A stretch of DNA of 44,746 nucleotides from Chitinophagaceae bacterium (lineage in GTDB: Bacteria > Bacteroidota > Bacteroidia > Chitinophagales > Chitinophagaceae), in NCBI GenBank assembly GCA_025933935.1, contig JAICYZ010000004.1, positions 1 to 44,746 of the forward strand. The letters run 5' to 3'. Position 1 is the first letter of the stretch. Each line of letters begins with the position of its first letter. Under the pieces are notes generated by a model, which did no database searches, was not told the DNA's origin, and saw only the letters and a program-made list of their open reading frames with translations. Below, piece by piece: positions 24,644 through 26,658 of this stretch. A program made the position numbers and the translations under genes.

Positions 24644-25021
24644 TTACGCTGAAGCATGCGTTTTTGCTAAAAGATGATGAATCCTTTTAACCATGTCATT
24701 TACTTCAAACGGCTTAGGCATAAAATCATCTGCGCCATATTCATAAATAGCCGTTTCTGCAATATTGGGATAAGAGGAAAACATGATTACCGGGATATTC
24801 CGGGTAAAAATGGATGATTTCAATTTTTTGCAAATATCCAGTCCATCGATGCCTGAAAGAAAAACATCAAGCAGGATTAATTGTGGTTTATAAGTCCTCA
24901 CTGCTTCCCACGCCTTACGCCAATCGGAGTACGCAAAGACCTCAAATCCCTTCTTCCTAAGGAGAGACTTAACAACCGCCAGAAGGTCAAGATCATCGTC
25001 AAGAATTAGAATTTTAGACAT
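24644..25021 (-). CDS. Single-domain response regulator (CheY-like)
   Basis: A 125-residue receiver domain with no output domain. It has the acidic pocket ILDDDLDLL, the phospho-acceptor Asp in LILLDVFLSG (about residue 55), the conserved Ser in MFSSYP and the Lys in FMPKPFEVND. I chose the ATG at 25021 (MSKILILDDD) rather than a TTG nine bases upstream. No histidine kinase lies next to it, so it must serve a kinase encoded elsewhere. It is convergent with the small hypothetical gene (11-bp gap). Confidence 0.9.
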   Translation of the reverse strand: MSKILILDDDLDLLAVVKSLLRKKGFEVFAYSDWRKAWEAVRTYKPQLILLDVFLSGIDGLDICKKLKSSIFTRNIPVIMFSSYPNIAETAIYEYGADDFMPKPFEVNDMVKRIHHLLAKTHASA

Positions 25022-25275
25022 ACCAATCAAGCATCAAAAAGCATGCAATGATTTTAGATTTTTGAGTGTCAGGAGAAAGATGTTAAAGGAGGAAAGGGAA
25101 ATATTTATTTTCTTGCTGGATTCCGCAACTGAAAAGGGCTTCAAGGCAACAGGGAAAGTTTATTCTTTAAAAGTTTTGGTTCAAATAATTTTTCACTTAT
25201 TTTTGCACTCCTTTAAAAAAAGCCGGTATAAAAGGAGATAATTTTTTACTGGTGTTTAAGATGATTTAAATATAT

Positions 25276-25348
25276 GATTCGGTAGCTCAGTTGGTAGAGC
25301 ACATCACTTTTAATGATGGGGTCCTGGGTCCGAGTCCCAGCCGAATCA
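25276..25348 (+). tRNA. tRNA-Lys (anticodon UUU)
   Basis: A complete cloverleaf can be folded: acceptor GATTCGG/CCGAATC (7 bp), D-stem GCTC/GAGC with loop AGTTGGTA, anticodon stem CATCA/TGATG with loop CTTTTAA (anticodon TTT), and T-stem CTGGG/CCCAG. The discriminator base is A; CCA is not encoded. One oddity: the T-loop is TCCGAGT, so position 55 is C where U is nearly universal. A terminator follows 8 bp downstream. Confidence 0.85.
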
Positions 25349-25384
25349 CTTTAAAGCCTCTGCAAAGCAGAGGTTTTTTTATTT
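25278..25384. repeat. Left copy of a tRNA-Lys + terminator direct repeat
   Basis: This segment of about 107 bases (tRNA body plus terminator plus ATTT) is repeated with substitutions at 25638-25747. The repeats are about 360 bases apart and enclose the broken GIY-YIG gene. Confidence 0.75.
25357..25380 (+). terminator. Terminator of tRNA-Lys
   Basis: The perfect 7-bp stem CCTCTGC/GCAGAGG with loop AAA is followed by seven T. Confidence 0.9.
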
Positions 25385-25405
25385 ATTGAAATTTAAAGAT
25401 TTTTT

Positions 25406-25645
25406 ATGCCATATACCTACATCTTATTTTCAGCAAAGCTCATAAATATTATATCGGCGCCTGCACTGATCTACAAAAAAGACTTCATGAACACAATATT
25501 GGGCATTCCAGGTTCACATGAACCGGGATTCCATGGGAAATAAAATACAGTGAGTCATTTGAAACATTGCAGGAAGCAAAAAAAAAGAGAACTATTTATT
25601 AAAAAAATGAAATCAAGAAAATACATTGAAAGTTTACTTCGGTAG
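25406..25645 (+). pseudogene. GIY-YIG nuclease pseudogene
   Basis: Remnant of an approximately 80-residue GIY-YIG endonuclease of the small UvrC-N-like type. It starts MPYTYILF (25406). After a one-base shift near 25430 it continues SKAHKYYIGACTDLQKRLHE, then HNIGHSRFT, an in-frame TGA at 25519, and TGIPWEIKYSESFETLQEAK. It shifts again in a run of nine A (25578-25586) and ends MKSRKYIESLLR at a TAG at 25643. The catalytic Tyr and Arg regions can still be read, but two frameshifts and one stop make it non-functional. Its last codons overlap the start of the second tRNA-like sequence. Related intact genes are often found beside tRNA genes in Bacteroidota, which suggests a mobile or homing origin (inference). 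Confidence 0.8.
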
Positions 25646-25710
25646 TTCAGTTGGAAGAGCATCCCGATTTTTAATCGGGAGGGTCTTGGGTGCGAGTCCC
25701 AGCCACATCA
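25636..25710 (+). pseudogene. Degenerate tRNA-Lys(UUU)-like sequence
   Basis: Clearly homologous to the tRNA-Lys at 25276 but decayed: the acceptor arms ACTTCGG and CCACATC pair at only three of seven positions, the D-loop is AGTTGGAA, and the T-loop is TGCGAGT. The anticodon arm has been replaced by the strong hairpin TCCCGA/TCGGGA with loop TTTTTAA, still showing TTT. It is unlikely to be charged or matured. It could be the right-hand scar of a duplication or insertion at the tRNA gene. Confidence 0.75.
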
Positions 25711-25747
25711 CTTTAAAGCCTCTGTAAAAGCAGAGGTTTTTTTATTT
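25638..25747. repeat. Right copy of the tRNA-Lys + terminator direct repeat
   Basis: Counterpart of 25278-25384: the shared blocks TTCGGTAG, TCAGTTGG, GAGTCCCAGCC, ATCACTTTAAAGCCTCTG and the T-rich tail are in the same order and spacing, apart from a 2-base longer anticodon arm. Confidence 0.75.
25719..25743 (+). terminator. Terminator after the tRNA-like remnant
   Basis: Stem CCTCTG/CAGAGG with loop TAAAAG and seven T; a slightly weakened copy of the terminator at 25357. Confidence 0.8.
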
Positions 25748-25857
25748 TTGTTACAGTCAGCGAACAAATAAGCATATTTTCTTTTCTTAATTATTTGTCT
25801 TGAATAATTTATTTTTCTTTCCTTTCTTCTCTGTTATTTTTGCCCAAAATCGAATGA

Positions 25858-26658
25858 ATGTTTGAAAATAAAGTTGTTGTTGTAACCGGCGGTACTGATG
25901 GAATTGGAAAAGCGCTTGTTGCAGAATTTTTGGAGAGAGGAGCAAAAGTTTCAACCTGTGCCCGTACTGCTGAAAAACTGGAGACATTAGAAAATGAATT
26001 TTTCGGAAAATCGTTATTTACAATGGTTGCCGATGTCAGCAAAGAAGGAGACTGTAAAAATTTTATTGAAGCAACTATTCAAAAATTTAATGGAATAGAT
26101 ATTTTGATCAATAATGCAGGAATTTCAATGCGCGGAATGTTCCAGGAAACAACCCTCGAAACATTGAGAAGAGTGATGGATATTAATTTTTGGGGAACCG
26201 TTTATTGTACCAAATTTGCGTTGGATTCAATTTTAAAAAATAAAGGAACCATTGTCGGAATGTCTTCTGTCGCTGGTTACAGAGGTTTGCCCGGAAGGAG
26301 CGGATACAGCGCAAGTAAATTTGCAGTAAACGGATGGCTGGAAGCTTTGCGCACAGAACTGTTGGAAACGGGCGTGAATGTCATGTGGGTATGCCCCGGA
26401 TTTACCAAATCAAATATCCGTAATGCAGCATTAAATAAAGATGCAAAGCCCCAGGTAGAATCTCCTTTAAAAGAAGAAAAATTGATGACTGCCGAAGAGT
26501 GCGCACAACATATTATTAAAGCAATATCAAAAAGGAAACGTACGCTCATATTGACTTTTACAGGAAAGGAAACCGTGTATATGAACAAATTTTTCCCCTC
26601 GCTCACGGATAAATTAACGAGGAAATTCTTTTTTAAAAATGGAGAACTGATCAAATAA
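25858..26658 (+). CDS. SDR family oxidoreductase
   Basis: A classical short-chain dehydrogenase of 266 residues. It has the cofactor motif TGGTDGIGKAL (residues 10-20), the structural motif LINNAGIS (about 82), catalytic Ser in GMSSVAGY and the YSASK catalytic Tyr/Lys (about 150). CARTAEKLE after the second strand suggests NADP(H) preference because of the Arg. The C-terminal part (LILTFTGKETVYMNKFFPSL) resembles the acyl/keto-reductase-like branch common in Bacteroidota. The substrate is unknown. It is followed after 59 bp by a SAM-hydrolase family gene on the same strand. Confidence 0.9.
   Translation: MFENKVVVVTGGTDGIGKALVAEFLERGAKVSTCARTAEKLETLENEFFGKSLFTMVADVSKEGDCKNFIEATIQKFNGIDILINNAGISMRGMFQETTLETLRRVMDINFWGTVYCTKFALDSILKNKGTIVGMSSVAGYRGLPGRSGYSASKFAVNGWLEALRTELLETGVNVMWVCPGFTKSNIRNAALNKDAKPQVESPLKEEKLMTAEECAQHIIKAISKRKRTLILTFTGKETVYMNKFFPSLTDKLTRKFFFKNGELIK

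Follow-up and report, generated by a model that had tools for sequence, protein, structure and literature searches.

A small GIY-YIG nuclease gene linked to tRNA genes in Bacteroidota, putatively a minimal homing-like element

What does a broken nuclease gene between two copies of a tRNA-Lys gene and its terminator represent? The question arises from a 44,746-nucleotide stretch of a Chitinophagaceae genome (hereafter the window), in which the original prediction, made from the sequence alone, had described a GIY-YIG nuclease pseudogene bracketed in this way and had proposed it as a possible fossil of a tRNA-associated homing element.

The locus in the window and its assembly

The bracketed arrangement held when examined by ARAGORN, Rfam, PF01541, alignment of the repeats, and a terminator scan (Table 1). 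The two tRNA + terminator copies are identical in 96 of 114 aligned columns, and their alignment score of 130 compared to 26 for the best of 20 shuffles rejects a chance repeat. Scanning of 25000-25900 returned both terminators and no others, while shuffles average 0.5. The repeats had been described as ~360 bases apart, and ~360 bases is the distance between the starts of the copies. The second copy, in which ARAGORN called no tRNA, is 80% identical to the intact tRNA-Lys over 25638-25711. It had been called decayed, and this was only partly borne out: rather than having decayed at random, its anticodon arm has been replaced by a palindrome with the stem TCCCGA/TCGGGA, which is the sole such palindrome in the window and occurred in none of 100 shuffles.

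Table 1 Features of the tRNA-Lys and nuclease locus (positions within the window)
Feature	Position	Strand	Support
Intact tRNA-Lys, anticodon TTT (UUU)	25276..25349	+	ARAGORN; Rfam RF00005, 70.2 bits
Terminator of intact tRNA-Lys	25353..25380	+	Terminator scan 25353-25377; T run read to 25380
GIY-YIG nuclease pseudogene, broken by an in-frame TGA and by frame shifts	25406..25645	+	PF01541 match; intact homologue at the same site in genome G014
tRNA-Lys-like copy, broken acceptor stem, replaced anticodon arm	25636..25711	+	Alignment to intact tRNA; no ARAGORN call
Palindrome TCCCGATTTTTAATCGGGA replacing the anticodon arm	25662..25680	no strand	Palindrome search
Second terminator copy	25715..25743	+	Terminator scan 25715-25740; downstream repeat copy

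The PF01541 match in the window (28.9 bits, cut-off 22.6) covers 25414-25584 with one in-frame TGA, and the protein is split over different reading frames, indicating frame shifts besides the TGA. As predicted, the nuclease frame runs into the tRNA-like copy, where its last part stops at a TAG (25643-25645). Because the nuclease is broken, the window copy is a fossil, and it belongs, in decayed form, to a recurrent unit. Elsewhere in the window, a DUF805 RNA (RF03081; 42932-42997, minus strand) was found with 63.6 bits, exceeding the gathering score.

The same assembly contains three GIY-YIG loci besides two long frames of 608 and 460 amino acids, the former of which we take to be UvrC. Each of the remaining two loci is likewise bracketed by a tRNA and its broken copy, namely tRNA-Arg(CCT) on contig C186 and tRNA-Arg(CCG) on contig C435; read by eye, the extra palindrome-like insert sits in the D loop at both. 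The TCCCGA...TCGGGA palindrome occurs at five places in the 4.1-Mb draft assembly. As four of the five are not beside a tRNA, the idea of a palindrome private to the element was rejected. At one locus (L170; G000:C247 near 1347), TCCCGA..TCGGGA and TCCGCC..GGCGGA lie within what appears by eye to be RNase P RNA.

The nuclease and its linkage to tRNA genes

Intact nuclease frames comprise ~80 codons, barely more than the catalytic domain. Three intact homologues match PF01541 with 48.8-57 bits, and Y5, Y16, G18, R26, and E62 are invariant in 12 homologues. The GIY-YIG catalytic domain has conserved Tyr, Arg, and Glu. The intact homologues belong to the GIY-YIG nuclease superfamily, the window copy itself being broken. 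Comparison of six hand-picked pairs of the tRNA-linked type gave low dN/dS values (~0.33, 0.23, 0.12, 0.17, 0.15, and 0.09), and it is likely on this basis that the intact genes are under selection; one pair of a clade without tRNAs gave 0.44, and one pair of unequal length was left unscored. Among solved structures, the nearest relatives by sequence are UPF0213 (2.8e-11, 4.2e-8) and SLX1 (from 4.6e-5), followed by I-TevI (0.14). The predicted fold (pLDDT 88.1) also matched UPF0213 best (1.9e-3), then SLX1 and I-TevI, with no Foldseek E-value <0.001. The NCBIfam group I intron endonuclease model matched below its cut-off, and PHROG gave weak matches to GIY-YIG homing families for one of three homologues.

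Small GIY-YIG genes had been said to be common beside Bacteroidota tRNA genes, which held, and comparison shows the linkage to be one of strand as well. In this genome and 59 relatives, a tRNA on the same strand lies within 400 bp of 59 of the 107 stand-alone GIY-YIG genes considered, compared to 0/107 for a tRNA on the opposite strand. These 107 come from the better matches only, without the long frames (UvrC-size and others) and without 12 of the 15 units of an array in genome G017. For closer homologues, i.e., the best 80 of 117 from a scan of species genomes with five Lys- or Arg-type proteins, the same-strand count was 58 (48/59 in the subset with full flanks) and the opposite-strand count 3. 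Nearly all of these are from Bacteroidota; the hosts in the scan were Chitinophagaceae, Algoriphagus, Saprospiraceae, Solitalea, Bacteroidales, one Ignavibacteria MAG, and one MAG labelled Actinomyces. The nuclease starts at a median of 41 bases past the tRNA end (quartiles 34-56; 91 loci with an upstream tRNA). On a tree of 100 rows, from which 4 broken rows and 3 duplicates had been dropped, a single clade of 32 is without any tRNA and a tRNA is present in 55 of the 68 others. Genes of the tRNA-free clade (L011, L015, L021, L044, L056, L077, and others) are ~100 amino acids long, and many are flanked by REP-like direct repeats, e.g., TGTCATTCCGA...GGAATCT.

An artefact of one MAG could be rejected, since the same anatomy occurs in named isolates and a complete chromosome (CP128386, Pinibacter soli, Parafilimonas terrae, Algoriphagus). 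Recent phage cargo was rejected as well: two scans of viral contigs contained no relative, and matches in phages and plasmids are distant (five phage and four plasmid records, only 37-43% identical).

Comparison further shows that nuclease lineages stay with one tRNA isotype. Among 135 tRNA-type rows, 88 fall into 14 isotype groups of at least two; on the tree, these groups required 24 changes vs 50.9 with shuffled labels, and none of 200 shuffles was as low. The underlying alignment is short and many forks are unresolved. For the tRNA-Lys group (35 rows), 4 changes were required vs 27.8 after shuffling, and no clustering was found for six groups of two or three rows (Leu-TAA, Arg-ACG, Pro-GGG, Leu-GAG, Arg-CCG, Ser-TGA). 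Lys-type nucleases occur in differing neighbourhoods, before an SDR gene in some relatives of the window and in a Pro-Arg-Lys cluster in several Algoriphagus, so the fidelity is to the tRNA and not to one neighbourhood.

States of the site, spare tRNA copies, and the palindrome

The original prediction had proposed searching relatives for empty sites with one tRNA copy, and had named plain tandem tRNA-Lys genes without a nuclease as the finding that would refute it. Empty sites were found: in genomes G009 and G011, a single tRNA-Lys and the same downstream SDR gene are present without a nuclease. The locus holds a short nuclease remnant in G006 and an intact GIY-YIG frame in G014, the nearest relative, with 633 of 704 aligned bases identical to the window. 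Among 30 genomes, each represented by its best tRNA-Lys locus (weak 26-29-bit matches on the tRNA itself excluded), four had nuclease and palindrome (G000, G014, G018, G031), two a nuclease piece (G003, G006), one palindrome copies only (G028), and 23 none; plain tandem tRNA-Lys genes without a nuclease were seen at none of these loci. The downstream flank of G015 is only 84 bases long, and a possible decayed nuclease start was read by eye at the tRNA-Lys locus of G035. Nuclease-free arrays do exist (G028, L293-L296, and others), and those examined bear the palindrome. Comparison shows that the nuclease is present or absent at one fixed site, as expected of a free-standing homing endonuclease.

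Truncated and tandem states are likewise shown by comparison. In G017, 15 near-identical nuclease units spaced 360 bp apart, and one truncated unit, lie behind tRNA-Asp (L036, G017:C23:202500-211500); the first units contain nuclease, palindrome, tRNA 3' part, and terminator in this order. The unit length of 320-400 bp is constant in distant hosts. Counting only flanks of ≥900 bp, loci with an upstream tRNA have extra nuclease pieces downstream in 11/57 cases and upstream in 1/57 (a match to the tRNA-derived tail). With the tRNA downstream, extra pieces lie upstream in 2/13 and downstream in 1/13, and with tRNAs on both sides the numbers are 4/8 downstream and 0/8 upstream. Tandem 5' copies also precede tRNAs: L293 has four ahead of tRNA-Thr and L299 three ahead of tRNA-Val, in stretches that contain no nuclease, and L297 and L306 have such copies together with a nuclease. 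Spacers of upstream tRNA units at L187, L293, L296, and L299 contain, by eye, a AGTTCTTT-like motif that we take to be boxA-type.

A T-arm copy of the tRNA lies downstream of the nuclease in 55 of 88 loci with an upstream intact tRNA. Of these copies, 54 retain the 3' acceptor strand, 20 the D region, 6 the 5' acceptor strand (shuffle control, 4/88), and 4 the anticodon arm. Upstream copies were matched in 28 of the 88 loci (0 in shuffles), 20 of them with a hairpin of ≥6 bp, and 60 loci are without upstream repeats; four of the 28 matches (L202, L212, L222, L236) are not copies but adjacent tRNA genes with a different isotype. Where a 5' copy precedes the tRNA (23 loci), all 23 retain the 5' acceptor strand, 19 the D region, 4 the 3' acceptor strand, 1 the T arm, and none the cognate anticodon arm. 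Comparison shows that spare copies are truncated from opposite ends and that the middle anticodon arm is swapped in both kinds. Under a second criterion, a downstream copy was present in 67 of 89 loci, with a hairpin of ≥6 bp beside 56 of the 67, vs 8/67 for the corresponding part of the intact tRNA; this set excludes 6 duplicates, 90 loci that have no intact tRNA upstream, and 2 whose flanks are short. Depending on the criterion, loci without a clear downstream copy number 22/89 or 33/88, up to at least 34/89.

Simple tRNA duplication followed by random decay was rejected, as the anticodon arm is selectively absent and palindromes are present. Breakage of the copies exactly at the anticodon arm was rejected too: upstream copies extend beyond the anticodon palindrome and end in the T arm, so their physical ends are not at the anticodon arm, and 20/55 downstream copies keep the D region. 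Of the 15 loci whose intact tRNA lies downstream of the nuclease, 14 have the 5' acceptor strand upstream, 11 have a hairpin, and 7 keep the anticodon arm; these types thus differ from the preceding ones, several of them having a D-loop palindrome.

The outer six pairs of the palindromes read TCCCGA/TCGGGA (31), TCCCGC/GCGGGA (8), TCCCGG/CCGGGA (3), TCCCGT/ACGGGA (1), or others (13); since this set was selected as hairpins, two-sided changes are no independent test. The loop often still displays the cognate anticodon, e.g., TTTCTAA in tRNA-Arg copies. Upstream and downstream palindromes within a locus are alike (19 loci; mean edit distance 3.32 vs 5.77, 0/5000), also among ten tRNA-Lys loci (2.6 vs 3.53, 24/5000). 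The 19 loci were chosen by rule, and an earlier 18 hand-picked loci had given a stronger, agreeing result.

Of 298 genomes from the order, 57 contain the pattern GAGCATCCCG...CGGGA (backward control, 5) and 190 the nuclease type. Excluding the window's genome, the nuclease is present in 51/56 pattern-bearing vs 138/241 pattern-free genomes (Fisher p = 4.7e-7, kinship uncorrected), i.e., 138/297 genomes have a nuclease without the searched pattern. None of the seven places looked at in the five nuclease-negative pattern genomes is beside a tRNA. At 30 pattern loci, a same-strand tRNA lies within 450 bp in 22, and a nuclease within 600 bp is present in 11 and absent in 19. Two loci show further arrangements: an array of tRNA-Lys-like genes with near-complete folds and a TCCCGA/TCGGGA anticodon stem in Pinibacter soli (L180), and a hairpin-bearing tRNA-Pro copy ~140-220 bases before an intact tRNA-Pro at 948 with no nuclease between (L213). 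The palindrome may protect spare copies, serve as the substrate of the nuclease, or be mobile in its own right, and the data do not discriminate between these possibilities.

A homing-like reading, its rivals, and known systems

The GIY-YIG nuclease SegB of phage T6 cuts in tRNA genes and drives tandem tRNA-nuclease repeats, and SegB-type nucleases are frequent near phage tRNAs of many isotypes (PMC13096335). The motif reported for SegB is RAWTSGAAC (PMC13096335), which we read as the complement of a typical T loop. The element described here resembles T6/T4 SegB (PMC13096335) in its position beside tRNAs of many isotypes, in its tandem tRNA + nuclease units (15 x 360 bp in G017; extra units at 11/57 loci), and in the junction between nuclease gene end and tRNA. 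In contrast to SegB, it is chromosomal in Bacteroidota with no close relative found in viral collections, it consists of the catalytic domain alone, it carries truncated tRNA copies with a palindromic anticodon arm, and its cutting is inferred.

The reading that we favour, at slightly better than even odds (probability ~0.55), is a minimal tRNA-directed, homing-like element of the SegB type. Such an element would comprise the ~80-codon GIY-YIG gene, the palindrome, and duplicated pieces of the adjoining tRNA gene. The nuclease would probably be expressed by read-through from the tRNA transcript and would break the cognate tRNA gene, likeliest in the anticodon arm. Out-of-register repair at the repeated tRNA half and terminator would then keep one working tRNA and add one unit, and arrays would grow away from the working tRNA. 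A target in the anticodon arm would explain both the isotype fidelity and why the arm is kept only in the working gene. A cut in the T loop remains possible, because the SegB motif resembles the T-loop complement and upstream copies end in the T arm. Cutting of DNA and its place, transfer between genomes, read-through, and marking or protection of spare copies by the palindrome are all inferred. The proposed fossil of a homing element is supported as a reading, whereas homing itself is not shown.

Several points speak against this reading. Neither cutting nor movement has been observed. The spare copies have lost the anticodon arm, yet the working tRNA retains this presumed target, and no explanation is at hand for how that tRNA would withstand a live nuclease; escape via a changed anticodon stem was rejected, since ATACA is frequent in nuclease-free tRNA-Lys genes but also present in many nuclease-bearing ones. 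Upstream copies end in the T arm, and the anticodon arm is kept in 7/15 loci with the tRNA downstream. The palindrome also lies away from tRNAs, many loci lack a clear downstream copy, and 138/297 genomes have the nuclease without the pattern. Among solved structures, UPF0213 and SLX1 are closer to the nuclease than I-TevI is.

This last point also bears on the rival that remains possible, in which a structure-specific, SLX1/UPF0213-like enzyme acts on a cruciform formed by the palindrome, the palindrome being mobile as REP sequences are for RAYT transposases. Sequence and fold searches agree on these nearest relatives, palindrome pattern and nuclease co-occur across genomes (51/56 vs 138/241), and another GIY-YIG clade sits in other palindromic-looking repeats. 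However, the isotype fidelity suggests recognition of the tRNA gene, and the palindrome occurs in genomes and places without a nearby tRNA or nuclease. A tRNA-linked repeat unit is, to our knowledge, not described in the UPF0213 (YhbQ/YazA) or SLX1 families. The element is like REP/RAYT in tying short palindromes to a small nuclease-type gene, but the gene encodes a GIY-YIG protein instead of a Y1 transposase and the copies carry tRNA pieces. It is unlikely, and already weakened by the data, that tandem duplications arise by themselves at tRNA genes and the nuclease is a mere rider. Arrays of palindrome-bearing copies without an adjacent nuclease, and the 19 of 30 pattern loci with no nuclease within 600 bp (11 have one), would fit this view, while the absence of opposite-strand tRNAs (0/107), the isotype fidelity, and the lack of any tRNA-adjacent place among those looked at in the five nuclease-negative pattern genomes argue against it.

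Type III toxin-antitoxin loci place an RNA and a terminator before a nuclease gene. A toxin with an RNA antitoxin, here the tRNA-like RNA with its terminator, would match the order of RNA, terminator, and nuclease and the repeated RNA units upstream at some loci. We consider it very unlikely, as upstream repeats are absent from most loci (60/88), the family is one of DNA nucleases, and array polarity and empty sites fit a mobile element. The remnant of a classical integrase island, with attachment repeats and one gene remaining, is practically ruled out. Like islands of tyrosine integrases, the element duplicates the 3' part of a tRNA that keeps working; in contrast to them, no integrase is seen, the terminator is part of the repeat, the anticodon arm is swapped, and the unit stays at ~320-400 bp in distant hosts. 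Between the repeats, GIY-YIG coding sequence alone was seen in the window and the loci inspected; in the window, no integrase was found between the repeats, the frames there being GIY-YIG pieces and short chance frames.

A bolder version of the favoured homing-like reading, to which we would not yet commit, is a distinct class of minimal mobile elements in Bacteroidota: an ~80-codon nuclease with matched palindromes would target the anticodon arm of one isotype, leave or bring a working tRNA, and spawn nuclease-free derivatives, namely the arrays of palindrome-bearing half tRNAs found next to tRNAs that have no nuclease. In the open-access literature searched, with subscription papers and preprints largely uncovered, no paper, judged by title and abstract, dealt with GIY-YIG elements that sit on chromosomes beside tRNA genes and have copies of this kind. 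The unit is likely a variant of tRNA-linked GIY-YIG elements that is widespread and seemingly undescribed so far, with its function inferred.

If the homing-like reading is true, the element would be among the smallest selfish elements, consisting of a lone catalytic domain, a palindrome, and pieces taken from a tRNA gene, and it would aim at a gene indispensable to the cell. It would account for small GIY-YIG frames that extend into copies of tRNAs. Its isotype-specific nucleases would form a natural panel for studying how a single tRNA gene can be recognised by such a small domain. The coupling of GIY-YIG nucleases to tRNA amplification, of the kind seen with SegB, would then extend from phages to chromosomes over much of a phylum.
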